Shown here in pieces: positions 21,520-47,398 of a DNA stretch of 63,602 nt. Under the pieces are notes generated by a model, which did not search any database, was not told where the DNA came from, and worked only from the letters and a program-made list of their open reading frames with translations. The DNA comes from a virus. Location: positions 1 through 63,602 of IMG/VR virus record IMGVR_UViG_3300018080_000182. One strand, 5' to 3'. Each line of letters starts with the position of its first letter. Within the stretch, counting starts at the first letter, position 1. The translations under genes and the position numbers were made by a program.

Positions 21520-21558
21520 AATCCCTCCTTTGATGGTATATAACTAATTTGACAATGA

Positions 21559-21677
21559 CAATTTAAACCGTTGTTGCATAGGCCCGCTGGCACCTATCCG
21601 CTCGGATAGCGGATGGCACATCCCGCTAATAGAGCGGAATGGTGCGAGGAGGGCCGAGCAACTGAGGTTTGAAATTG
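21559..21677 (-). ncRNA. Structured leader RNA or small RNA (two-hairpin junction)
   Basis: Nested pairs fold the whole 119-base stretch: CAATTT(A)AACC 21559-21569 with GGTTTGAAATTG 21666-21677, GTTGC 21573-21577 with GCAAC 21658-21662, GGCCC 21581-21585 with GGGCC 21651-21655, and GCACC 21590-21594 with GGTGC 21641-21645. Inside are two hairpins: CTATCC/GGATAG (21594-21609) and CCGCT/AGCGG (21623-21637). It lies in a 273-base gap, 40 bases before the TTG start of the leftward gene at 21304-21519, so a cis-acting leader is likely. Strand is inferred from gene direction. No known riboswitch class is recognised. Confidence 0.55.
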
Positions 21678-21792
21678 AGAATCAAGTTAATTAATAAATT
21701 ACAATGGCGAAACACCATCCTAATAAAAGTCTTATATACCAAAATAAATCTCCCATATCAGTGATTACAGTTTTTTATCTTAAATAACTTGA

Positions 21793-22511: not shown

Positions 22512-22537
22512 AAAAAAAAGAGGCGTTTTACCGCCCC
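22512..22537 (-). terminator. Leftward intrinsic terminator of the large structured RNA
   Basis: On the minus strand GGCG-GTAAAA-CGCC is followed by TC and eight T. It lies directly after the last paired element of the 22544-23782 region and before the ribosome binding region of the next leftward gene, which supports minus-strand transcription of that RNA. Confidence 0.75.
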
Positions 22538-22565
22538 CTTTTTGTGCGACTAAATCGATAAGTTC

Positions 22566-22723
22566 GCAAGCACGTTGACGGCGTGTAGGGGTGGAATGGT
22601 CCTGCAGCATTCTTTCCTCGTCTTTTCCGAAACTCTTCTGAAAAAGCCCTTTTTCTGAAGAGTAGAGGAAGAGTAAAGAATGCGTAACGGACCTGGAACC
22701 CCGGGCGCCGTAACACGTCTTGC
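22566..22723. repeat. Long imperfect inverted repeat, rod A (158 bases)
   Basis: From the outside inward: GCAAG/CTTGC, ACGT/ACGT, ACGGCG/CGCCGT, GGGGT/ACCCC, GGTCC/GGACC, GCATTCTTT/AAAGAATGC, TTCCTC/GAGGAA, then ACTCTTC-T-GAAAAAG against CTTTTTC-T-GAAGAGT around a tiny CC loop. The interior junctions are short mismatches, so the whole element is one rod. Confidence 0.85.
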
Positions 22724-22801
22724 GCTTAACACCAAATTAATGGCTGTGACGAAACATCACAATTAAGCGACTCGCACAACATAACTTAAGATAGATTAAC
22801 C

Positions 22802-22915
22802 GGTGGTGGCCACGAGCCATGGGCCCTGGATAACACCTCCGATTGTTCCGGAAAAACGCAGTGACTCCGGAACCCTCGGAGGAGTTCTCCCGGGCCCATG
22901 GCGTGGGCCACCACC
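22802..22915. repeat. Inverted repeat, rod B (114 bases)
   Basis: GGTGGTGGCC (22802-22811) pairs with GGCCACCACC (22906-22915), GCCATGGGCCC (22816-22826) with GGGCCCATGGC (22892-22902), CCTCCGA (22836-22842) with TCGGAGG (22876-22882), and TTCCGG (22846-22851) with CCGGAA (22867-22872). The loop is about 15 bases. Confidence 0.88.
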
Positions 22916-22919
22916 CGAC

Positions 22920-22942
22920 GGGCAGCAAGATTCTTGCTGCCC
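22920..22942. repeat. Perfect 10-bp hairpin GGGCAGCAAG-ATT-CTTGCTGCCC
   Basis: Ten perfect pairs with a three-base loop, five bases from rod B. A nearby CCGGGC (22949-22956 region) can compete for GCCCGG, so alternative folds are possible. On the plus strand a T6 run lies about 20 bases downstream, too far for a standard terminator. Confidence 0.85.
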
Positions 22943-23034
22943 GGAAGGGGCCGGGCATAGCGTTTTTTCCGTCTAACACCCTACCGAAACAGTAGGTTTA
23001 GAACTTATGTTAATACAACTAAAGATTGAAATAT

Positions 23035-23145
23035 CCTTCTATTACTGAAACATCGACGTGATCTCAGGTTACCGGTCTGGCTATGGCCAACGCCATTGCC
23101 AGTCCGGTCACCTGTGTGATCTCGTCGCTGTTTCATAATCGAAGG
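23035..23145. repeat. Rod C1: regular hairpin of 5-bp helices split by single mismatches
   Basis: Arms 23035-23087 and 23092-23145 pair as CCTTC/GAAGG, ATT/AAT, TGAAACA/TGTTTCA, CGACG/CGTCG, GATC/GATC, CAGGT/ACCTG, ACCGG/CCGGT, CTGGC/GCCAG and ATGGC/GCCAT around a four-base CAAC loop. Almost every five base pairs there is a 1x1 mismatch. Confidence 0.9.
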
Positions 23146-23158
23146 AACAAGCGAAGGC

Positions 23159-23312
23159 CCGGAAACTCTCCTGATGAGCTCTGGGTTCGAGATGAGCCAA
23201 GTCATCAGGACCCAGCTTCCAGGTGCAGCGGGTCAACCGGCGAACCTGGACGCTTGGGTCCTGATGATATGGAATCATCTCGAACCCAGAGCTCATCACT
23301 CCCAGTTTCCGG
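23159..23312. repeat. Rod C2 with a perfect 24-bp inner stem
   Basis: CCGGAAACT (23159-23167) pairs with AGTTTCCGG (23304-23312). A perfect 24-bp stem follows (23172-23195 with 23275-23298), then CATCAGGACCCA (23203-23214) with TGGGTCCTGATG (23255-23266), and CCAGGT with ACCTGG, around a short terminal stem-loop. Confidence 0.9.
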
Positions 23313-23416
23313 TGCCGCAGCGCCTTACCTTTGCTTAGTATTGCCGGTGAAACACCAGCCTTTCTCTTGTATAAAATGTATAAATTAAGTACATGCTAAA
23401 GATTGAAATAACGCAT

Positions 23417-23540
23417 CCATTTACTCCTGGCTGAGTGACTGATTGTCTGGTCGTAACATCTGCAGCTTAGCGGGCGCAGCCGGCGGTGCTGCCGATGTTA
23501 GCGACAAAGACATAAAGTCAACGAAGCGTGGTGTAAATGG
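23417..23540. repeat. Rod D1 inverted repeat
   Basis: CCATTTAC (23417-23424) pairs with GTAAATGG (23533-23540), TGACT (23436-23440) with AGTCA (23516-23520), GTCT with AGAC, AACATC (23455-23460) with GATGTT (23494-23499), and CAGC with GCTG. Confidence 0.75.
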
Positions 23541-23563
23541 CATCCGTTTATTAGCCAATATCA

Positions 23564-23717
23564 GCAAACCGTACATCTGGCGCATCGCCTCCAAGGGGGT
23601 GGTGGGCGCCAAGAGAAGCGCAAACATCAATCCGGCTCCAGCCGGAATTGATGGAAGGGCTTCTATATTGGCGCCGTCCAACCCTCCTGGAGGCGTAGCT
23701 CCGGATGTGTGGTTTGC
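23564..23717. repeat. Rod D2 inverted repeat
   Basis: GCAAACC (23564-23570) pairs with GGTTTGC (23711-23717), ACATC with GATGT, CGCCTCCA (23586-23593) with TGGAGGCG (23688-23695), GGCGCCAA (23605-23612) with TTGGCGCC (23668-23675), CATCAA (23625-23630) with TTGATG (23648-23653), and TCCGGC with GCCGGA around a TCCA loop. Confidence 0.85.
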
Positions 23718-23782
23718 GCCAATATTTGCGATCTGCTTTTATTTGGTAACACTGAAGAAGCTTCAGCTTATCCCCGTGTACT

Positions 23783-24820
23783 TTAATTTCCTTCTTTATC
23801 TAATAATGTTTCTGAGCCCTTCTTCTGGGCTGATTCAGTTACTTCTTGCTGTGGCTTGTCAGCATCGGTAGCAAAATTTTCTGCAATTGATTTCTCATCC
23901 TGCTGGTCAAGCGGTACAGCTTCCTCGTCTGGATTTACTTCCAGCAACTTTTGCTCAAGGTCGCCTATATCAAGCATTGACCCAGTACCGCCACCGCCTT
24001 CTATTCTGGCTTGGTCGACCTGGAATTTTAATCCACGCTTAATAGGCTCCATTACGAGCTGTATGAAATCCGGTGTAGGTATCAGGTCTGTTATGAAAAC
24101 ATCCCTTCCTCCGGATTTAATCTTTTTATGAATTAAGTATAACTTGGCTCCAAAAAAGCCATCAAATTTTAACGATTTGTTCGCCTCTCGTTCTTTTATG
24201 GAATGTGCAACGCGCAACAGGTTCCATAATTGAGAGATAGAAGATTCAATACCCAAAATGGTATTAATCGATCGTGTCTCAAACCTGTATGGATTTGGTG
24301 TCATGTCAATAACCGGAAAGCACTTCATAAATCCAATCTCTTTACACTTCTTAGATTGAAAATCAGGACAATCCTTATAAAGACATTTTCTTTCTGTCCA
24401 TTCACGGTCTCCATCAGGAGTGAATTTCAAAAACTTAGCCGTATCATTCAAGCCTTGGCTCTGACACAAAAGGCCTTCAGAAGATGAATACATAGCCAGC
24501 TTACTTTCCCACATCTCTTGAGGTGTTTGGTACAAGCTGACAATTTCAACCCGCCGCGGCGTTTTGCTGTCAAGAGTTGTTTCAAGCGCTTTTTGAACTG
24601 TTTCATTTAGAACCCAGTCTTTTATAACGACCTGCTCTTGTGAACTTCCAACCCTTTTTGTCTGGGTAACTTCCTTCAACATACGGAAGAAACCAGCAGC
24701 TTTGGGCGCATTCTTTTTATTAGGGCCTTCGTTTGGTGCATACCCTGTTGAAATCTTTCCTCTATATTTTATTATCATATGAGGAACGCCAGCATCGTCG
24801 TGAGTTAATCCTTTTATCAT
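23783..24820 (-). CDS. phiC31 gp3-like (recombination directionality factor family-like) protein
   Basis: A 345-residue protein. The N-terminus is basic with MIIKYRGKISTGYAPNEG. A Cys motif (CLYKDCPDFQSKKCKEIGFMKC spread over about 145-170) is followed by PYRFETRSINTILGIESSIS, a combination I associate with the gp3-like family of actinophages, one member of which is the phiC31 recombination directionality factor. No integrase is in the window, so a replication-linked role, perhaps as a DNA-binding cofactor, is as likely. The tail is acidic. AAGGAGGAATA precedes the ATG. The large structured RNA begins right after its stop. Confidence 0.4.
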   Translation of the reverse strand: MIKGLTHDDAGVPHMIIKYRGKISTGYAPNEGPNKKNAPKAAGFFRMLKEVTQTKRVGSSQEQVVIKDWVLNETVQKALETTLDSKTPRRVEIVSLYQTPQEMWESKLAMYSSSEGLLCQSQGLNDTAKFLKFTPDGDREWTERKCLYKDCPDFQSKKCKEIGFMKCFPVIDMTPNPYRFETRSINTILGIESSISQLWNLLRVAHSIKEREANKSLKFDGFFGAKLYLIHKKIKSGGRDVFITDLIPTPDFIQLVMEPIKRGLKFQVDQARIEGGGGTGSMLDIGDLEQKLLEVNPDEEAVPLDQQDEKSIAENFATDADKPQQEVTESAQKKGSETLLDKEGN

Positions 24821-32422: not shown

Positions 32423-35400
32423 ATGCCAGATTCTAAACAGAAGGTTTTGCAGAAGCTGTCAAAGATGGATGCTGACGCTCGCAGCAACGTGTTGATGAAT
32501 ACGACAGTTTCTGGCACTGTACAAAGAATACTTGAGTCCGTTGAAGATGATGAAGTTAAGCTGAAGGTCAACAAAATCTGGGTAGATAGAAAGCACAACA
32601 ATAAAGACATCTCTGCTCAACAGTCGGTCAGGAATAAAGGCCAGATATGGGGAAACGATTTACGGGCAGACCTTGAGTTTGTTGACAAAACTACCGGAAA
32701 GGTTGTTGACCGGGTTCCAAATATTAAAGTTACTAACATTCCAAAAATTACAGACCGCGGCACATTTCTCGTTAAGGGTAATGAGTACCAGTTTACAAAA
32801 CAATCCAGGTTGAAGCCCGGCGTATACACAAAGCGACAGACCAATGGTGAGATAAGCTCTTTCTTCAATGTTGATAAGACCGTCGATTTTGAGCGAGGAT
32901 TTAACAATAATTTCAAAATCAATTTCAACCCTGAGAAGAAAACATTCACCATGGGGTATGGCTCCAAGAACATACCTCTTATCAATGCTTTAAGAATGGT
33001 GGGTGTGAGTGAAAAGGAACTGACAGACCGATGGGGAAAGTCGGTCTACGAAGCCAATTCAAAAGCTTATGATAAACATGCTACCAGGGACCAGAACAAA
33101 TTATACGAAGCAATATTTGGCCGCCCTCCGGCAACTGGAACACCAACGGCAAAAATAAATGAAGAGATAAAAGAACGACTTTTTGTCACAGGCTTAGACC
33201 CTGAAACTACTCAAGTTACGTTGGGTAAGCCATATAAAAATGTCAACAAAAATGTTCTGCTTGATGCATCCAATAAAATTATTGGAATACATAAAGGTGA
33301 TGTTGAAGGTGACGACCGGGAAGCTCTGATATTCAAATCCTTTTATGACATCGAAGACCATGTCAGGGAGAAGCTGGTCAAGAACAGTGGAAAAATTATC
33401 AACAATATTAAGTACAAGCTTAAAAAGAATAAACAGATTAATAAATCAATCAGCTCCCAGGTATTTGACCCGTTCGTTATAGGTGTCGTAACCAGCAGCC
33501 AGCTGTCAAACCCACCAAACCAGACCAACACCATGTCAATAATCGGAGAGGGTAGTAAGTTCACCGTAATGGGTGAGGGTGGTATAGGAACCACCAATGC
33601 TATCACCAATGAGACCAGGCAGATATCAAATAGTGAAGCAGGATTTATCGACCCGCTTCATACACCTGAAGGCCCGGGTATTGGAGTTGCGGTGCACAGC
33701 ACTGTTGATACGATAAAAGTTGGCAATGATTTATACAGTCGCTTTCTGTCCCCAAAGGGTGAAACGGTTATGATGCGCCCAATGGACACATGGGGTAAGA
33801 ATATTGCTTTCCCGGATGAGTATGACACCTCCAGAAAAGTTCCAAAACCGAAGAAGAGGAAAGTCAGGGTTATCAATAAAGGTGATATCAAAGAGGTTGC
33901 TGCATCAAAGGTTGACAGTATCATTGCCAGCCCGTCAGGTATGTTCGACACATCTGCAAACTCAATACCATTCCTGAATTCAATCCAGGGTAACCGTGGG
34001 CTGACAGCTTCGAAAATGCAAGAGCAAGCCCTGCCGTTAAAATACCGTGAGCAGCCTGTGGTTAATATTGTTGATGAAAACGGTATGTCTATTGGCGGAA
34101 TGATGGCAGAGACAATGGCACTCCCAAAGTCCCCAGCAGCTGGAACCGTAACCAAGGTAACGCCGGGTAAAATAACTATCACTGATAAAAAAGGTGCCGC
34201 ACATGATGTGCAGCTTTACAATAATTTCTCATTAAACTCAGAGAGTTTCATTCACAACGAGCCTCTTGTCAAAGAGGGCGATAAGGTTAAATCGGGACAA
34301 ACTCTTGCCGACAACAATTTTACCAAAGATGGTAAAGTTGCTATCGGCACAAATCTCCGGGTGGCGTACCTTCCATACAAGGGCTACAACTATGAGGATT
34401 CCGCGGTAATGTCAGAAAGTGGCGCGAAGAAATTAACCTCATTGCATATGCGTGATTTTAAAGTAAAGAGGTCAGCTAAAGGCACGTTCTCGAGAGATAA
34501 GTTCAAAGCGTACTACCCTGAAGAAGCAAATGCCGAACAGCTGTCGAAGCTGGACAAAGACGGTGTTATTAAAAAGGGCCAGAAAGTAGCTCGTGATGAT
34601 ATTCTTATTGCGCATATGGAGCGGCGCGTCCCGACAGCTGATGATAAGGCGCTTGGGCGTCTTGACAAACAGCTTATGAAAGACATGACCAATAATGCCA
34701 TCAAGTGGGACAATGACCATGTTGGAAAAGTTACCAATGTTGAGAAGCATGGTAACAGCGTCCTTGTCAGCATCAAGACCGAAGAACCCCTTCGTGAGGC
34801 TGATAAAATATCCGGGCTGCATGGCAATAAGCACATTATATCAAAGATACTTCCCGACCATGAAATGCCTTATGACCCGAAAACCGGAAAACACATTGAG
34901 TTGACTATGAACCCGATTGGTGTATCCAATCGTATTAATACATCTCAGATTCTGGAAAATGCAGCGGGCAAAATCGCTGACAAATCAGGGAAGCAGTATA
35001 AAGTTTTAAATTTCTCTGGTGAAGATAATTCACAAAAAGTAATGGATGATTTGAAAAAATGGGGCCTGGACGATAAAGATATTTTAATCGACCCTGAGAC
35101 GGGAAAGCCTTTTTTAAACCCGGTGGCTAATGGGAAGTCAAACATCCTGAAGCTGGAACACATTGTAGAGCATAAATTCTCTTCACGATATAAAGACGGG
35201 TACGATGCAAATGAGCAGCCAGTAGCCGGTGGAAAGACCGGTGGTAAGAATCTTGCCAGAATGGAAATGGCTGCAATGCTTGCTCGCGGCGCCAATGAAA
35301 ACCTGAAGGAGATGTTTCAAATTAAAGGCCAGAAAAATGATGAATTCTGGGAAGCCATGGAAACTGGCCAAAGCCTGCCACCGCCCAAGAAGGCATTTGT

Positions 35401-38400
35401 GTGGGACAAGATGCTTTCCATGATGGCTGGTTCCGGCATTAATGTGGAGCAGAAAGGGAAAACCTTTACTTTAAAGCCCATGACAGATGATGAGATATTA
35501 GCAAGGTCAAGGGGCGAGTTAAAACGCCCACAGGAAACATACCGTAAAAAAGACATGTCCCCAATGCGGGAAGGGCTGTATGACCCGGTTAAAGCTGGTG
35601 GAATGTTCGGAGATCACTACACTCATTTTGCTCTTCCGGAAAAAACCCTTAATCCAATTACCGCCGCTGCCACAGCGTCTCTTCTTAACATGCCTTTAAA
35701 GACTCTCAACAGCGTGATGGATGGTAAGCAGTTTATTGATAAAACAACCGGTGAGATAGTCAAGCCAGGTTCACGGAATGCTATATCTGGGGGGCCTGCT
35801 ATTGAAATGATGCTGGAGCGTGTTAATGTTAATAAAGAGCTGAAAAATACTCAGGAGCTGGCCCAGACTATTACCAATCCGTCAGAACTAAATAAGGCGC
35901 ACCGCAAGATTAAGTATCTAAAATCGTTAAAAGACAATAAAATGAAACCAACTGATTACATGGTTTCAAACGTTCTGGTAACACCATCCAAATACCGTCC
36001 GATGGTAGCTATGGGGCCAGACAATGTAATCATAATGTCTGATATCAACAATCTGTATCAGACGGCTGGCCACACTGCAAAAGCGCTCAAAGGCCTGAAG
36101 TCTCAATTGAAGAAAAGTGTCGGAAATGATGATATTGAGAATCTTCAATTGGCAGAGACTCGTGGCGCAATGTACCAGGATTTGAAAGCGATATCCGGGC
36201 TGACCGAACCGACAGCATACCTTCATCGCGTTCAGGATAAGAAGGGTTTTATTACACAGATTGATGGCGGTAAAAAGAAGCAGACCAAAGAGGGTTTCTT
36301 CCAAGACCGGGTGCTTGAGCGCAGGCAGGACTTGGTCGGACGCTCTACCATTATCCTCAATCCCGACCTCGGTGGTGACGAGATTGGTCTCCCGAAAGAC
36401 ATGGCAACAAAAATGTTCCAGCCATTTATTATGCGTAAATTGATTGGTTGGGGGTATAAGCCTGGTGAGGCCCAAAAGCACATTAAAGAAAAGTCTCCAA
36501 TATTCGAGCGGGCACGACAGGTCGTTTCAGATGAGAGGCTCATTATAGCAAACCGGGCACCGACGCTTCATCGGTGGAATATGACAGCCTTCAAACCAAA
36601 GCTGACAGATGGCAAATCCATTGAGGTTCCGTCTGTTGTGATTAAAGAGAATTTCGGCGGAGACTTTGACGGAGATACGTTCCAACTACACACTCCGATA
36701 AGTGCAAAAGCTCTCCGGGAGGCGGAGGCAATGAAACCGTCAGCCAGTATGCTTAAGACCGGGTATGATTCAGTGCTGAATGCTCCTGAAGCAGATATGG
36801 TTGCTGGCAGCTGGTTAATGTCGAAGGGCAAGGGTGGGCAGAATACAAAACTAAAATTCAAAGATATTGAGGAAGCAAGGTTCGCTTTTAATAATAATAG
36901 GTTTACATACGGTGACACTATAGAGATCAATGGTCGTAAGGCTCCGTTCGGTATGCATGAAATTAATTCTGTTGTTCCAGAAGATACTCAGAAATGGGAT
37001 GTTGAGCTTGATTCTAAAAATGTGCAGGATTGGGTTAAAAACGTAACCAAGAAGCACAATGGAAAGGTTGCGCTTGGTCTCGCTGATAAAATTAAAGATA
37101 TTGGTAACAATTATGTTACCCAGTATGGATTTACACTCGGGGTCTCTGATACTCTGGCTGACAAAGACCTCAGAAAAACATTGCTGGATGAAGCTTATCA
37201 GAAATCGCTTGGGCGTTCAGATAGAACTGTGGTCAAGGCGTATTCCGATGCGACAATCAAGGGCAAGAAAAAACTCGAAAAGAAATACGGTGATTCGACC
37301 ATGCTCGGTGTCGGGATACAATCAGGGGCTGGTAAAGGTATTGATAATACCTCTGCTATAACGCTTATGCCCGGTATTGTCATGGATGCGAATGACCAGC
37401 CAATACCGGTTCCGATTACCAAATCATACTCAGAAGGCCTAAATACTTCAGGGTATTGGGCCGCTGCTCATGGAGCCCGCGGCGGAAGTATTAAGAAATC
37501 AGTTCAGTCTTATATGCCGGGCTGGCTGACAAAAGACCTGATGAACTCAATCTACGAAACGCGCATCCATAATGATGAGCCAGTAGATGTTGAGGGTGTC
37601 GAATACAAGATTGATGATAAGAAGGCTATAATGAACCGATACCTTGCCCGTGATGTTAAAGACACCGGTGGTAAGATTATCGCCAAGCGCAATGAGCTTA
37701 TTGACAGCGACACGATGAACAAGATGGTTCAGAATAAAGTCAAAAGTATATTTATCCAATCGCCCCTTACCGACCCAACACCAGGAGACGGGTTCTCAAG
37801 CTGGTCATATGGCACGGATTATGAGGGTAAGCGTCACAATATCGGTGACAATATCGGTGTAATCTCTGCCCATACAATTACCGAGCCGTCACTTAACCTT
37901 GCCATGAAATCGTTTCATACCGGCGGCGCTTTTAAAGGTGATGATACACACCAGAAAGGTACCCGCTTCGACCAGCTGGACAGAACATTGCGGTTTACCA
38001 GAAACCTTCCGGACAAGGCTACCCTTTCAGATATGAGCGGAGAGGTAAAGAGTATTTCCAAGTCTCCTATTGGAGGTTGGGACGTTGTCTTATCTGATGG
38101 AAAGAAAGAAACCAACCGGTATATTGACCCGAACAATCGCGTCTCGGTAAAGAGGGGTGACAGGATTAAGATGGGAGACAAGCTGTCAACTGGAACTCCC
38201 AGTGCTCACGATATGTTGAAATACAAAGGTATGAAAGATACTCAAAAGTTCCTGGTCGAACAGATTGATGACATTAATGAGGGTAAGCTCGACCGTAGAG
38301 ATATTGAAACAATTGTCCGTGGGATTACCAATACAACAAGAGTGCTTGACCCTGGCTCCAGCGCATATACCCCTCACGACATCGCCCCTCTTACTGCCGT

Positions 38401-38767
38401 AGAGCATTATAACAATAATAACGAGAAGGAAGAAGATATTGAGCAGTCTGAGGGAGACCATCTCGCTCAGAATTATGGCACGCACAAAAAGCATCAGAAA
38501 ATTGATAAGAGAACAATCGACGACCTCGGCAAAAAGGGTGTTAAGCGGGTCAAGGTCTTTAAGGATAGAATTAAACACGAGCCGTTCTTAACGCCGGCGG
38601 GTATCAGTGCGAAGGCTGCGTCTTCAGAAGACTGGATTGCACGCCTTGCTCATAACAGAATTAGAAAAGTTCTGGAAGAAGGTACCACTCAGGGTTGGAA
38701 AACTACAATCGACCCGAAGAAAGGGCACCCGATCCCTCAGTACGTGACAGGAGAATACACATGGTAA
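32423..38767 (+). CDS. Single-chain fused beta-beta' DNA-dependent RNA polymerase
   Basis: A 2114-residue protein carrying beta motifs then beta' motifs in one chain. Beta part: ITDRGTFLVKGNEYQF, PLHTPEGPGIGVAV (414-418 is TPEGP), VAYLPYKGYNYEDSAVMSES and GLHGNKHIISKI (His800-Lys803). Beta' part: LVGRSTIILNPDLGGDEIGL, ANRAPTLHRW, the catalytic GGDFDGD (Asp1414, 1416, 1418 bind Mg), a trigger-loop region GYWAAAHGARGG (about 1677) and SFHTGGA (1830-1836). I see no cysteine in the whole chain, so both beta' zinc domains are absent. It lies at the head of a virion operon. It may transcribe late genes or be packaged. Confidence 0.93.
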   Translation: MPDSKQKVLQKLSKMDADARSNVLMNTTVSGTVQRILESVEDDEVKLKVNKIWVDRKHNNKDISAQQSVRNKGQIWGNDLRADLEFVDKTTGKVVDRVPNIKVTNIPKITDRGTFLVKGNEYQFTKQSRLKPGVYTKRQTNGEISSFFNVDKTVDFERGFNNNFKINFNPEKKTFTMGYGSKNIPLINALRMVGVSEKELTDRWGKSVYEANSKAYDKHATRDQNKLYEAIFGRPPATGTPTAKINEEIKERLFVTGLDPETTQVTLGKPYKNVNKNVLLDASNKIIGIHKGDVEGDDREALIFKSFYDIEDHVREKLVKNSGKIINNIKYKLKKNKQINKSISSQVFDPFVIGVVTSSQLSNPPNQTNTMSIIGEGSKFTVMGEGGIGTTNAITNETRQISNSEAGFIDPLHTPEGPGIGVAVHSTVDTIKVGNDLYSRFLSPKGETVMMRPMDTWGKNIAFPDEYDTSRKVPKPKKRKVRVINKGDIKEVAASKVDSIIASPSGMFDTSANSIPFLNSIQGNRGLTASKMQEQALPLKYREQPVVNIVDENGMSIGGMMAETMALPKSPAAGTVTKVTPGKITITDKKGAAHDVQLYNNFSLNSESFIHNEPLVKEGDKVKSGQTLADNNFTKDGKVAIGTNLRVAYLPYKGYNYEDSAVMSESGAKKLTSLHMRDFKVKRSAKGTFSRDKFKAYYPEEANAEQLSKLDKDGVIKKGQKVARDDILIAHMERRVPTADDKALGRLDKQLMKDMTNNAIKWDNDHVGKVTNVEKHGNSVLVSIKTEEPLREADKISGLHGNKHIISKILPDHEMPYDPKTGKHIELTMNPIGVSNRINTSQILENAAGKIADKSGKQYKVLNFSGEDNSQKVMDDLKKWGLDDKDILIDPETGKPFLNPVANGKSNILKLEHIVEHKFSSRYKDGYDANEQPVAGGKTGGKNLARMEMAAMLARGANENLKEMFQIKGQKNDEFWEAMETGQSLPPPKKAFVWDKMLSMMAGSGINVEQKGKTFTLKPMTDDEILARSRGELKRPQETYRKKDMSPMREGLYDPVKAGGMFGDHYTHFALPEKTLNPITAAATASLLNMPLKTLNSVMDGKQFIDKTTGEIVKPGSRNAISGGPAIEMMLERVNVNKELKNTQELAQTITNPSELNKAHRKIKYLKSLKDNKMKPTDYMVSNVLVTPSKYRPMVAMGPDNVIIMSDINNLYQTAGHTAKALKGLKSQLKKSVGNDDIENLQLAETRGAMYQDLKAISGLTEPTAYLHRVQDKKGFITQIDGGKKKQTKEGFFQDRVLERRQDLVGRSTIILNPDLGGDEIGLPKDMATKMFQPFIMRKLIGWGYKPGEAQKHIKEKSPIFERARQVVSDERLIIANRAPTLHRWNMTAFKPKLTDGKSIEVPSVVIKENFGGDFDGDTFQLHTPISAKALREAEAMKPSASMLKTGYDSVLNAPEADMVAGSWLMSKGKGGQNTKLKFKDIEEARFAFNNNRFTYGDTIEINGRKAPFGMHEINSVVPEDTQKWDVELDSKNVQDWVKNVTKKHNGKVALGLADKIKDIGNNYVTQYGFTLGVSDTLADKDLRKTLLDEAYQKSLGRSDRTVVKAYSDATIKGKKKLEKKYGDSTMLGVGIQSGAGKGIDNTSAITLMPGIVMDANDQPIPVPITKSYSEGLNTSGYWAAAHGARGGSIKKSVQSYMPGWLTKDLMNSIYETRIHNDEPVDVEGVEYKIDDKKAIMNRYLARDVKDTGGKIIAKRNELIDSDTMNKMVQNKVKSIFIQSPLTDPTPGDGFSSWSYGTDYEGKRHNIGDNIGVISAHTITEPSLNLAMKSFHTGGAFKGDDTHQKGTRFDQLDRTLRFTRNLPDKATLSDMSGEVKSISKSPIGGWDVVLSDGKKETNRYIDPNNRVSVKRGDRIKMGDKLSTGTPSAHDMLKYKGMKDTQKFLVEQIDDINEGKLDRRDIETIVRGITNTTRVLDPGSSAYTPHDIAPLTAVEHYNNNNEKEEDIEQSEGDHLAQNYGTHKKHQKIDKRTIDDLGKKGVKRVKVFKDRIKHEPFLTPAGISAKAASSEDWIARLAHNRIRKVLEEGTTQGWKTTIDPKKGHPIPQYVTGEYTW

Positions 38768-44193: not shown

Positions 44194-44205
44194 GTATTAA
44201 TAGCT

Positions 44206-44234
44206 AAAAAAAAAGCCTTCGGTCGGGAAGGCTT
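44206..44234 (-). terminator. Leftward intrinsic terminator of the RT operon
   Basis: On the minus strand AAGCCTTC-CCGACC-GAAGGCTT is followed by nine T and TAGCTA. Back-to-back with the rightward terminator at 44171-44193, it closes two convergent operons and sits 10 bases after the structured RNA. Confidence 0.9.
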
Positions 44235-44243
44235 AAAAACTAT

Positions 44244-44494
44244 GTTGATGAAGCTGAATCTGGCTGGGGTCGGGGGCCAGACAGGGGCAACCCTGACTGG
44301 CCGCACGGTTCCCGCATGTTAGTGCGGGAGCCGTGACCAGGCATTGATCGACACAAATCCACATTTGTAAAACAGCTTCTGTTTTAGAAATTGGATTTGT
44401 TATACGCCCCGTGCGTTTTTGTGAGCCACAGGTGCCTTATATGCCCTCCGAAGCGAAACGCTTCAGTCGAGAGCTCAGCTCTCCCTCCATCAAC
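44244..44494 (-). ncRNA. Structured RNA with closing terminal stem: candidate retron-like ncRNA
   Basis: On the minus strand the 5' end GTTGATGGAG (44494-44485) pairs with the 3' end CTTCATCAAC (44253-44244), ten pairs with one G-U that would be an A-C mismatch on the other strand. Inside, in order, are hairpins GAGAGC-TGA-GCTCTC (44483-44469), GAAGCG-TTT-CGCTTC (44464-44450), a larger one (44400-44353), CACGGCTCCCGCA with TGCGGGAACCGTG (44335-44304), and GGCCAG-CAGGG with CCCTG-CTGGCC (44302-44275). Two short stem-loops then long stems within an a1/a2-type closing stem is the layout of retron msr-msd RNA. It lies downstream of the RT, not upstream as is usual. Confidence 0.55.
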
Positions 44495-44499
44495 TGAGT

Positions 44500-44685
44500 T
44501 TAATCTGCCTCATTCTTGGTCTCTGTAAGATCAGGTTCCTTTTTCTTTCGTTTCGGCAGAATTTTTTTCATACTACCAACTAAATTGGCAACCGGTTCAG
44601 CTATTGCTTTTACAAAATTCGCTGTCGCATCGACACCTTTGTTAAATTTCTCGAGCTTCTGCTCGCCTGTTGCTGTTTGGTCCAT
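44500..44685 (-). CDS. Small protein between RNase H and the structured RNA
   Basis: A 61-residue protein (MDQTATGEQKLEKFNKGVDA ...) with a short amphipathic or weakly hydrophobic helix (ATANFVKAIAEPVANLVGSM) and a very basic segment (KKILPKRKKKEPD). The ATG at 44685 follows CAGGAGAGTTT; a longer upstream frame lacks support. Its stop is 6 bases from the RNA's terminal stem. A basic RNA- or membrane-binding accessory of the RT unit is possible. Confidence 0.6.
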   Translation of the reverse strand: MDQTATGEQKLEKFNKGVDATANFVKAIAEPVANLVGSMKKILPKRKKKEPDLTETKNEAD

Positions 44686-44716: not shown

Positions 44717-45205
44717 TTATTTACCCTTCGCCTTAAGCATCTGCTCCTTGACAATAGCATCAACAGCATTGTTATACTGATTTGATGCATGCCCTTTCAC
44801 CCACTTAAAGGTAAAGGATTTAAATTCGGGGGTAATACTATCCAACCTTTTCCACAAATTCAAGTTTAATACTTTCTTACCGTTTGATTTTCTCCAGCCG
44901 TTCCTCTTCCATTCAGGAAGGTATGCAGTATAGTTCTCACTTACATACTGCGAATCTGGCCTTACTATACAATGGTGGTTTGAGGCGCCGTCATAAGAAT
45001 CGTCCAGCTCTTTCTTTAATGCCTTTAACCCTTGAATAACAGCGAGCAATTCCATCTGATTATTGGTGACGTTTATTCTGTAGCCACCTCCTTTTCTTAT
45101 TATTGTGTTGGCAGGGTCTAATATAATCCACCCGTACCCTCCAGGACATCCAGCATCTCTCTTGTTTCCAGAGCAACCACCGTCAGTGTAAACTGTAAAT
45201 GTCAC
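44717..45205 (-). CDS. rnhA: Ribonuclease HI
   Basis: A 162-residue protein with the full RNase HI set: Asp8 (YTDGGCSGN), Glu52 (NNQMELLAVIQGL), Asp84 (RPDSQYV), a conserved WKRNGWRKSNGKKVLNLNLW block, VKGHA (His139) and Asp149. RNase HI cuts RNA in RNA-DNA hybrids. Here it lies 14 bases after a reverse transcriptase gene, so removing template RNA from RT products is a likely task, though Okazaki primer removal is also possible. It starts with GTG at 45205 after CGGAG. Confidence 0.93.
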   Translation of the reverse strand: MTFTVYTDGGCSGNKRDAGCPGGYGWIILDPANTIIRKGGGYRINVTNNQMELLAVIQGLKALKKELDDSYDGASNHHCIVRPDSQYVSENYTAYLPEWKRNGWRKSNGKKVLNLNLWKRLDSITPEFKSFTFKWVKGHASNQYNNAVDAIVKEQMLKAKGK

Positions 45206-45219
45206 TAATTTCTCCGTTT

Positions 45220-46272
45220 CTAATTAAATTTTTCTCCTTCAAATTTTAGCAACTGATCCATGTATTTCTTTCCTTTACCATGGTCAATTGACATAACAAA
45301 TGAGGCGTACCCTTTTAATTGTTTCAGAAGTGATTTGGTAGTTTTATCAGCGTGTTTAACAGTGGCGTGGTGTACCTGTGCCCGGAATAGATGCATCCTT
45401 TTCCGCTGTATTGATGTTTTTACGTTAACAACAACACCGCACACCTTAAGCCTTCCTGCTTTTGATTTCCACAATGTTTTCTTTTTATTCGGAGTAAATC
45501 CATAAGCCCACAGCTGTCTGTATGCCTGCTGTTTTATGGCTTTCTTTAACTCTTTTTTAGTCAAGGTTTTACTGCTGAACGCAAGGTCGTCAGCATACCT
45601 GGTATATTCAATGTCTCGCTCTTTGCAATATCTGAGCATGGTCTGGTCGAAACCCCTCATAACGATATTCGCTATCATTGGAGAGGTGGGAAACCCCTGT
45701 GCAGTATATCCATCAACAGTGCAAAGGTCAATTATCCGGTTAAACATGGACTGGTAGCCAGTAGCCTCGCAATATTCTTTAATGACTACGGCTTTTATCT
45801 CTTCGCACTTAAACTCATAATTCTGGTTTTTATTATGATAAAGCGATGGGCTGCACCTTCCATCCAGCATCCGTTCATAAAATTTGCAATATCTGCAAAT
45901 ATGCTTATTGCCGAACAGGCAGTTTTTCAAATGTTCCGTTGATATGGAATCAAAGAAACTCTTAATGTCAATCTTACCAAGAGAGTTTGCTCCGACATGG
46001 AGCTTTGCATTTGTTGCAATACCTTTCTTTGCCACAAAGCCATGAGCAGCCTCACTCGGCCTGAACCGGCGAAGAAAGCGCCAGTAAATTGACTTCTGTA
46101 TATATTTTAATCGTTTGTCGGGTGCAACGATTTGTCTTTTGGATCCGTCCTTTTTAGGGACTGTTATCCTATCAAGATGATTGTGTTTATTTAGAATTAT
46201 GTCATCAATTTCTTCAATTTCGGCCCCAAGAATCTTGGGCATGTCAAAATTACTGAGTGGAGCCTTTATCAT
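45220..46272 (-). CDS. Retron-type reverse transcriptase
   Basis: A 350-residue RT with KIDIKSFFDSI (Asp102, motif A), QGFPTSPMIANIV (motif B, the QGxxxSP form rather than the SQ form of diversity-generating elements), and RYADDLAFSS (Asp228, Asp229). KVCGVVVN resembles the retron region Y VTG motif, and the C-terminus (LKGYASFVMSID) is also retron-like. A Cys insertion (Cys126, 129, 140, 156) may bind zinc. No maturase, Avd or DGR template repeat is seen. Its ATG lies inside the 3' end of the DHH gene after AGGAAG. It is followed by RNase HI. Confidence 0.85.
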   Translation of the reverse strand: MIKAPLSNFDMPKILGAEIEEIDDIILNKHNHLDRITVPKKDGSKRQIVAPDKRLKYIQKSIYWRFLRRFRPSEAAHGFVAKKGIATNAKLHVGANSLGKIDIKSFFDSISTEHLKNCLFGNKHICRYCKFYERMLDGRCSPSLYHNKNQNYEFKCEEIKAVVIKEYCEATGYQSMFNRIIDLCTVDGYTAQGFPTSPMIANIVMRGFDQTMLRYCKERDIEYTRYADDLAFSSKTLTKKELKKAIKQQAYRQLWAYGFTPNKKKTLWKSKAGRLKVCGVVVNVKTSIQRKRMHLFRAQVHHATVKHADKTTKSLLKQLKGYASFVMSIDHGKGKKYMDQLLKFEGEKFN

Positions 46273-47398
46273 TAGTTTTGTCTTCCTCCTGTTCTTCTAC
46301 GGCCTTTTTGCGGGCCTCGTTCATATCCTTGGCTTCTCCTGTTTTGACCATATCAGTAGCTTCGGTCTCAACCGGATCCACCTCAATATCCACTCCTACC
46401 TTTTCCATCTCAGCGTCTGCCATTTCGCCCTCCGGATTAAGTATTGTTAAAATGTCATCAATATGTTGTTCCAATTTATCTTTGGTAATAACTGAGCCAC
46501 CAACATCATGGTGGCCACCGCCACTTATGGTGTAATTAAACCCTCCCAGCATTTGACCAATATGAACACCATTGGTAAAATTGCCCCATTGATTAAAACC
46601 AACATCGGTCTGTACCCTGTCGCCACCGAGGTGTACAACTCTGAATGCATATTTTACATCAGGCCTGACATAATATTCAGAATACCTGGGGTAAGCATAC
46701 AGTCTGTTCATCTCAGTGATCGCAACCGGTCCATTTATAACCATCGCCTTTTCAATGGACAAGGCTGCCTTCCGTAACTTTGCAACAGCCGACTGGTCAA
46801 TACCGAGAGTTAGCAACGCCTCATTAATGTCAAAGTCTGCTGCACAAATCACTTCGACTATTCTGCAATACAGCGAATCAATCGTAATAGTCATCTGCTC
46901 AAGGTGCGCTTTTAATATCATCAAAGGCGTAAGACAGCTGAATATATATTCAACAGATTCATAGCCGGCGCTGTCAATCATATCAACCATATTAATCATA
47001 TGCGGGTCAATCGGCAAATACCTTCCAAGCGGGTTGTATGTAAGGTGTTCATAAATAATTTTCGCCGCAGATTTTGCCTTTGGGTCATAACACTTGTTCG
47101 GATCAATGACCGGCTTGTCACCAAGGGTTTTATTGTAATGGTGGTCAATCCATAAGTTGGCCATTTCATGGTGCTGGTAGTCAACAATTATACAAATGTC
47201 GTTACCATCCAAATCCGCATCTTCTATGATTTTATTAAACTTATCACCCCTCTGTGAAGACCTCACAGGTCTTAGGGTGTACATTCTACCATCGACCACG
47301 TACTTTAAAACCAAAGCCGCGCTTATAATACCATCCACATCATCGTGGAAAAAGATGTGAAACATACCGTTGTTCATTCTTGGTATATGCCCTTTCAT
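46250..47398 (-). CDS. DHH/DHHA1-family phosphoesterase
   Basis: A 382-residue protein. HDDVDG (His18-Asp22), IIVDYQH (Asp73) and IDHH (Asp85-His87) are the metal-binding DHH motifs, and GGGHHDVGG is the DHHA1 nucleotide-contact motif. The family includes RecJ exonuclease, nanoRNases and cyclic-dinucleotide phosphodiesterases. The length and the absence of an OB domain fit NrnA-like or oligonucleotide-cleaving members. The C-terminal 70 residues are acidic and disordered. Its stop overlaps the RT start by 23 bases, so it is co-translated with the RT and might process its products or counter nucleotide signals. Confidence 0.8.
   Translation of the reverse strand: MKGHIPRMNNGMFHIFFHDDVDGIISAALVLKYVVDGRMYTLRPVRSSQRGDKFNKIIEDADLDGNDICIIVDYQHHEMANLWIDHHYNKTLGDKPVIDPNKCYDPKAKSAAKIIYEHLTYNPLGRYLPIDPHMINMVDMIDSAGYESVEYIFSCLTPLMILKAHLEQMTITIDSLYCRIVEVICAADFDINEALLTLGIDQSAVAKLRKAALSIEKAMVINGPVAITEMNRLYAYPRYSEYYVRPDVKYAFRVVHLGGDRVQTDVGFNQWGNFTNGVHIGQMLGGFNYTISGGGHHDVGGSVITKDKLEQHIDDILTILNPEGEMADAEMEKVGVDIEVDPVETEATDMVKTGEAKDMNEARKKAVEEQEEDKTNDKGSTQ

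Follow-up and report, generated by a model that had tools for sequence, protein, structure and literature searches.

A probable tandem array of retron non-coding RNAs in the genome of a large phage

What occupies the 1.2-kb gap at positions 22544-23782 of the virus record IMGVR_UViG_3300018080_000182, of which we analysed a stretch of 63,602 nucleotides (the window)? The first-pass annotation described the gap as an exceptionally structured non-coding RNA, unlike any nameable family and recalling the giant phage RNAs GOLLD and ROOL. Our analysis points, with a probability of about 0.8, to a tandem array of four retron non-coding RNAs (ncRNAs; msr-msd units), with a fifth nearby, which would be used in trans. 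In place of one giant RNA we found repeated modules of retron type, whose features are those of msr-msd RNAs, and a retron reverse transcriptase (RT) and an RNase H are encoded in the same phage.

The minus strand of 22544-23782 folded with a minimum free energy of -609.6 kcal/mol, and the minus-strand RNA of 22542-23783 scored z = -20.5 against 30 exact dinucleotide shuffles. The six lowest-energy 150-nt segments on the two strands of the 63.6-kb record all lay inside the array (down to -108, mean -33), which contains perfect helices of 24, 13, 11, 11, 10 and 10 bp. These results agree with the earlier description of a minus-strand structure far beyond chance with stems of up to 24 perfect pairs, and the folding energy, about equal on both strands, does not discriminate between them. 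The claim that mismatches are consistently purine-purine held only in part: 17 of 26 single mismatches were of this kind on the minus strand of the window array, but only 53 of 112 in the wider set of 15 array regions from six phages. The proposed intrinsic terminator was present as a hairpin with a T-run, but it was missing from the output of the consensus terminator scan, probably because the stem extends into the T-run. The space between this hairpin and the stop codon of the gene at 23783-24820 is tiled by four modules, and the feature extends beyond the gap to a fifth, separate one. Searches with the Rfam covariance models, which the first-pass annotation had proposed as a check, returned no family at the gathering score in the window or in three relatives; at E values up to 10, the window segment 21500-24800 gave chance-like matches alone, far below gathering.

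The modules share one grammar (Table 1). The 5' strand of a closing stem, P1, is followed by a G, a hairpin of some 7 bp capped by an NUU triloop, and one or two long rods; the 3' part is a U-A-rich stretch ending in AG, after which comes the 3' strand of P1. The two strands of P1, labelled a1 and a2, pair over 7, 6, 8, 8 and 10 bp in modules M1 to M5, respectively, and over up to 14 bp in relatives. M1 was missed by our descriptor of this grammar and was read by eye; its orthologues occupy the same place in three relatives. In M4 and the orthologues compared, both arms of the rod keep CAGG and, after it, a short complementary motif, although the surrounding helices change. This motif is possibly a protein site or a constrained internal loop.

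Table 1. Positions of the modules and of neighbouring features in the window
Feature	Position	Strand	Description
M1	23387..23783	-	a1/a2 AAGUACA/UGUACUU; C then G after a1; CUU-triloop hairpin; two rods, then UUUAG and CA before a2
M2	23013..23372	-	a1/a2 AUACAA, then G / UUUAG, then UUGUAU; hairpin GCUGGUG-UUU-CACCGGC
M2 first rod	arms 23172-23195 and 23275-23298	-	24 perfect pairs
M2 second rod	about 23060-23125	-	mismatch at about every sixth base
M3	22777..23012	-	a1/a2 UAACAUAA, then G / CUUAAG, then UUAUGUUG; hairpin CCUACUG-UUU-CGGUAGG; long GC-rich rod
M4	22542..22779	-	a1/a2 UUGUGCGA, then G / UUUAG, then UCGCACAA; hairpin UGUGAUG-UUU-CGUCACA; rod
Terminator-like hairpin and T-run closing the array	22512-22541	-	read from the sequence; fold -16.2 kcal/mol
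M5, separate	21534..21741	-	a1/a2 UGGUAUAUAA, then G / AAUUAG, then UUAUAUACCA; hairpin GAUGGUG-UUU-CGCCAUU
Gp3-like gene	23783..24820	-	PF18897, 2e-11; stop codon abuts M1
Retron-type RT	45220..46272	-	350 amino acids (NAKLH, YADD, VCG); profile, sequence and structure matches
RNase HI	44717..45205	-	directly downstream of the RT; Pfam 1.2e-27
DHH-family protein	46250..47398	-	overlaps the RT start; conserved in the clade
Second structured RNA	44200..44500	-	downstream of the RT and RNase H; G-UUU-C hairpin, different 3' end

Published retron ncRNAs have paired ends, a1 and a2, of about 8-30 bases, and reverse transcription is primed by a conserved guanosine located at or just past the inner end of a1; their msr contains 1-3 hairpins of 7-10 bp with loops of 3-10 nt, their msd is one long stem with some mismatches, and RT-Eco1 and RT-Eco3 each require a stem with a three-base loop (PMC6868368). 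Features of these RNAs are also described in PMC12887533 and PMC3335539. Because the modules matched these published features, we examined the RT gene of the phage. Judged by profiles, sequence and predicted structure, the gene encodes a retron RT. Its best PADLOC model was RT_XIII (1.2e-63), a name that we take to denote a retron type, and an Ec107-like, retron-labelled model scored 4.6e-57. The protein also matched the NCBIfam retron St85 model (1.5e-61) and, by sequence, the Ec86 RT in PDB (5.8e-26), and the first 18 Foldseek matches of its predicted model were all retron RTs. The motifs NAxxH and YADD were found in all eight phage RTs compared, and the VTG position read VCG or ICG in all eight; we take NAxxH, YxDD and VTG to be marks of retron RTs.

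We then compared related phages. One contig (G001) is the same virus as the window (at least 99.99% identity over four overlapping stretches). Three relatives, G002, G003 and G004, were reached via the gp3-like gene and the primase gene, and further phages via their fused RNA polymerase genes. The polymerase gene of the window (32423-38767, plus strand) encodes a 2114-amino-acid protein of the fused Rpb2-Rpb1 type that is 75-76% identical in three relatives and about 29-31% identical to those of the best-covering named phages, Vibrio phage D181 and Salmonella phage Arash. G002, G003 and G004 have a structured non-coding stretch at the same place after the gp3-like gene, in which linkers and hairpins are nearly identical while rods have drifted or been replaced. 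A module follows the gp3-like homologue within about 70 nt in these three and in G013 and G022. The interval in the three relatives contains no open reading frame (ORF) of at least 80 amino acids (at least 90 in G004), save one of 81 amino acids in G003. The position is thus kept in related phages with hardly any long ORF, consistent with the non-coding character first proposed.

Records were scanned whole, piece by piece, except for the RNA-polymerase relatives G008, G014, G017 and G018. Modules were found in seven further phages, all of which encode this RT, so that RT and modules occur together in eight of eight genomes. Counted by hand, the window has five units, G002 nine, G003 four, G004 seven and a relic (its fifth unit, which has lost the rod and the 3' junction), and G013 five. 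A second array of three units with its own terminator-like end is present in G002 and G004, and single units occur in G002 and G013. G016 contains a chain of units (nine by eye, five by script) in which closing pairs are swapped from A-U to U-A, G022 contains three units, and G027 two or three. Pattern scans of viral contigs for module pieces found the four first relatives only; a broader one returned 11 stretches, five of them in known relatives (L016, L017, L018, L059, L061), and on reading, the other six (L054-L058, L060) were dismissed as chance matches. The genome contig pattern scan for module pieces found none. Vibrio phage D181 and Salmonella phage Arash are the named phages with the closest RNA polymerases; the first descriptor had no match in the 49-kb stretches of them that were read.

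The specificity of the descriptors was assessed with controls. The first descriptor matched four modules on the minus strand of the window and none on the plus strand, and shuffled strands gave 0.0 and 0.2 matches per strand (two controls of ten shuffles each). A wider descriptor gave 47 matches in 1.76 Mb of 15 records of the RT clade, some of them chance-like (e.g. L028 and L033 in G002, L052 in G003, L103 in G011 and L321 in G024), compared with 3 matches in 0.99 Mb of eight relatives without a strong RT match, a control that includes some fragments and one record with a weak RT match (G006). Both counts include the overlaps of 600 bases between pieces. One match in G030 lies 0.7 kb downstream of the RT and is a possible cis unit. 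We further used other retron RTs, 24-32% identical to that of the window, taking 49 of the 61 viral loci (L199-L259) among the best 80 of 366; the 12 omitted loci appeared to be near-duplicates, judging by their scores alone. At these 49 loci, 5 descriptor matches fell in the 33.7 kb just upstream of the RT, compared with 14 in the other 1.6 Mb (Poisson P = 1.5e-5), and some of the 14 were tandem pairs downstream of RTs (L202, L209). In the annotated retron of a Vibrio phage (L178), both the a1-G and the CUAG-a2 junctions were found in the 0.7 kb upstream of the RT. The upstream enrichment and this positive example show that the module grammar is at home beside retron RTs. An RT scan of genome contigs gave 33 loci (22-39% identity) with one chance-like descriptor match (L280).

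These results bear on the idea that the interval acts as RNA, as a giant structural RNA, or a scaffold made of RNA alone, of the GOLLD or ROOL type. Its size, phage origin, extreme structure, tandem junctions and terminator-like end would all suit such an RNA. However, no Rfam model matched, modules occur singly as well as in tandem and vary in number between phages as repeated, movable units do, and the conserved parts match a retron msr in phages that all carry the retron RT. We regard a giant RNA as very unlikely.

Covariation was examined in a table of 28 units, drawn from five phages, with the G, the NUU loop and the AG as alignment anchors. Since many of the units were also found by a descriptor that requires these anchors, the constancy of all three is in large part built in. 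The table omits M3 of G002 and G004, the relic of G004, which has no rod, and every unit of G016, G022 and G027. M1 of the window entered it with a shift of two bases and was therefore counted as lacking pairs at the first positions. In the closing stem, 24-27 of the 28 modules were paired at each of eight positions, and in the msr-like hairpin 27-28 were paired at each of seven. Pairing exceeded all 1000 shuffles at seven of the eight positions in the closing stem and at five of the seven in the hairpin, the remainder being nearly invariant or equal to the best shuffle; as many as five kinds of pair occurred in the closing stem, and as many as six in the hairpin. The G stood directly after a1 in 27 of the 28 modules, with M1 of the window as the exception. 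Among orthologues, 12 of 60 pairs in the M2 rods (three phages) had changed on both sides, as had 9 of 21 pairs in the closing stem, hairpin and inner helix of M4 (four phages; covariation term -2.94). A MAFFT alignment of M1 was unreliable inside the rods and was left unused. Paired positions therefore covary both across modules and among orthologues, in keeping with what the first-pass annotation would lead one to look for.

This pattern weighs on a second alternative, that the modules are relics of retron ncRNAs, past duplicates no longer used by the RT. The degraded fifth module of G004 fits that idea, as does Retron-Nex1, for which duplicated msr-msd copies without a nearby RT are described in PMC6868368. 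Against it, compensatory change keeps the stems while their sequence is replaced, and the closing stems differ between modules yet remain paired. Relics appear to us as improbable as a giant RNA. Structures at the 3' end of an operon messenger RNA that shield it from exonucleases, with a likeness to retrons by convergence, would account for an array that begins at a stop codon and for arrays that end in terminator-like hairpins. The size is far beyond what such protection needs, the junction G and AG and the NUU hairpin would be unexplained, and M5 lies just ahead of a site that by eye resembles a ribosome-binding site and not at a 3' end; we give this explanation only a slender chance.

An element acting as DNA, such as a replication origin, a cruciform or a recombination site with inverted repeats in single-stranded DNA, would agree with the similar folding of both strands, the low number of G-U pairs and the replication-type genes around the array. 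However, G-U pairs were commoner on the transcribed strand (223 of 2961) than on the other (149 of 2880), and the strand-specific junction motifs, the terminator-like end and the orientation along the operon also speak against it. A DNA element is accordingly the least credible of these alternatives. Further candidates were set aside: a CRISPR-like repeat, because the 15-nt direct repeat is the junction before a2 common to two modules; a coding origin, because ORFs of the size searched are nearly absent from the interval in the relatives (the shorter ORFs of the window were not aligned); an IscB or TnpB guide RNA, because such genes are not general beside the arrays and look like insertions; and a diversity-generating retroelement, because the models matched by the RT indicate a retron (no search for template and variable repeats was made). 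The apparent insertions are RNA-guided mobile genes: in G004 an OrfB/TnpB gene (Pfam Cas12f1-like TNB and OrfB_IS605; L046:8285-9397) within the second array, and in G003 a gene for an IscB-like RRXRR protein (L007:8305-8769) after module M5.

The DHH-family protein encoded beside the RT is possibly a partner, a processing enzyme or an effector, and PADLOC found no known effector among the three neighbour proteins (DHH, RNase H and a 96-amino-acid protein). In G016, an RNase H gene and a small HU-like gene, identified by eye, lie just upstream of the array. The second structured RNA has counterparts at L029:14700-15060, L044:10890-11190 and L101:5500-5750, and a CCCCCGACCCC stretch is common to G001-G004, G011 and G013. 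A G-NUU-C hairpin was found downstream of the RT in 7 of 8 RT-bearing genomes read, G011 being the one without it. This RNA is possibly a cis retron ncRNA. Elsewhere, a small thioredoxin-like gene, also seen by eye, lies inside or just before arrays at about L110:7350-7575 (G016) and at L046:9995-10300 (G004), and L025:11450-11800 (G002) contains several GC-rich repeat copies with CGCGCGCGCG and GGAAACTGG separated by short unique spacers.

Several observations weigh against a retron array used in trans, beginning with the modules themselves. The a1/a2 stems of the window, at 6-10 bp, are short by comparison with the 8-30 bases given in PMC6868368; M1 and M2, and M1 of the relatives, carry two rods in contrast to the single msd hairpin of that review; a C stands between a1 and the G in M1; and at least three of the nine by-eye units of G016 have no NUU triloop. 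The branch G stands in an RAG or UUG context followed by various bases, and a TAGC-like context was not found; PMC6868368 gives TAGC as the commonest branch context and lists CAGA, CAGC, GAGC and ACGC as well, so TAGC is not strictly required. The consensus fold of M2 had a covariation term of +1.34, which is unfavourable and results from the many broken cells in an alignment of three sequences. As a test for selection at the DNA level, G-U pairs were counted in the msr hairpin (24 of 193 pairs) and in the rods (100 of 1671), and the apparent avoidance of G-U in rods disappeared once one conserved U-G position was dropped (10 of 165). The link with the RT has its own difficulties. The RT gene lies 21 kb from the array of the window, and retron RTs usually act only on their own msr (PMC6868368). 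The protein scored 208 bits on the NCBIfam St85 model, below the curated cut-off of 235, and the mean predicted local distance difference test (pLDDT) score of its model was 69. No convincing array was found in the RT-clade records G005, G011, G021, G023, G024, G028 and G030, 44 of the 49 distant RT loci had no upstream match, and the retron of Klebsiella phage 4LV2017 (L177) showed no a1-G pair in the stretch read. The RNA adjacent to the RT has a 3' end unlike that of the array modules, so either may not be the true substrate. Our confidence in the array was lowered slightly by the negative result for the Klebsiella phage, by the C of M1 and by the deviating loops of G016.

If the interval is a retron array, its working can be proposed from the module anatomy. 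The P1 closing stem would be the a1/a2 pair and the G after a1 the branching G; the NUU-triloop hairpin would be the msr hairpin read by the RT, and the rods would be the msd template. After transcription of the array, the single retron RT would prime on the 2'-OH of the G, begin synthesis at the U-A-rich stretch whose terminal AG precedes a2, and produce a DNA hairpin from each msd. A phage or host RNase HI would then remove the template, and several different multicopy single-stranded DNAs (msDNAs) would arise from one enzyme. The use of RNase H1 by retrons is treated in PMC8989520.

The DNA hairpins might be bound by DNA-binding or defence proteins of the host, as ligands or as decoys, which we put forward tentatively; fast-changing stems on a constant, RT-read core would fit such a role. 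Of the first-pass idea that the interval is a sponge for RNA-binding defence proteins, only this guess about DNA products remains. There are precedents: overproduced mismatched msDNA is reported to titrate MutS (PMC6868368), and the msDNA of Retron-Eco8 contacts the effector (PMC12887533). A larger, still doubtful picture, to which we give somewhat better than one chance against two, would be a multi-template retron of large phages, in which one RT and a phage RNase H make up to about nine msDNAs as an arsenal of hairpins against host defence or DNA-metabolism proteins. In this picture the stems of the trans arrays would be quickly replaced and the RT-recognised core kept, and the use would be the reverse of the usual anti-phage use of retrons.

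Retrons are known as defences of bacteria against phages, in which a single ncRNA usually stands next to a single RT. The modules share with bacterial retrons such as Retron-Eco1 (Ec86) the a1/a2 stem, the G at the end of a1, the RT-required msr hairpin with its loop of three bases, the long msd stem, an RT of retron kind and the use of RNase H. They differ in that several ncRNAs stand in tandem at a distance from the RT, the RNase HI is the phage's own, the branch context is RAG or UUG, and PADLOC recognised no known effector in the three proteins encoded nearby that it was run on. Retron-Nex1 (Ne160) of Nannocystis exedens lies in a bacterial chromosome and is described in PMC6868368 as repeats possibly spread by a distant RT, whereas here rods vary between modules, arrays are syntenic between phages, and the phage supplies RT and RNase H. 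Phage-borne retrons are represented by phi-R73 (PMC6868368), Vibrio phage 10N.261.55.B9_PE001 and Pseudomonas phage PfAC01b, all with a retron RT in the phage genome; the latter two differ in having an annotated effector gene beside the RT, and the folded msr hairpin of the Vibrio phage has no NUU triloop. Two phage contigs of 210 kb have two tandem modules downstream of the RT that fit the same descriptor (L202:12684-13227, L209:12811-13307), but their RTs are 27-30% identical to ours, the pair is in cis, and a GP88-family gene lies between the RT and the RNAs. GOLLD and ROOL are likewise large, structured and phage-associated, but their cages rest on kissing loops and A-minor contacts, as PMC12286853 describes, in contrast to the repeated retron-type junctions found here. 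Phage-borne retrons and msr-msd duplicates without a near RT are thus known, and the apparently new element is the tandem array in a phage, for which we found no report among the matches listed in a full-text search that mostly excluded subscription papers; an earlier report may therefore exist.

The module descriptor provides a search grammar for retron ncRNAs that Rfam did not report here. If the proposed use is correct, large phages of one clade, which have fused multisubunit RNA polymerases and keep a retron RT, an RNase H and arrays of many different templates, would invert the anti-phage use of retrons, and the question would arise of what a phage may gain from a set of small DNA hairpins. 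Such phages would also offer natural RT systems with one enzyme and many templates, useful for making several DNAs at once in cells.

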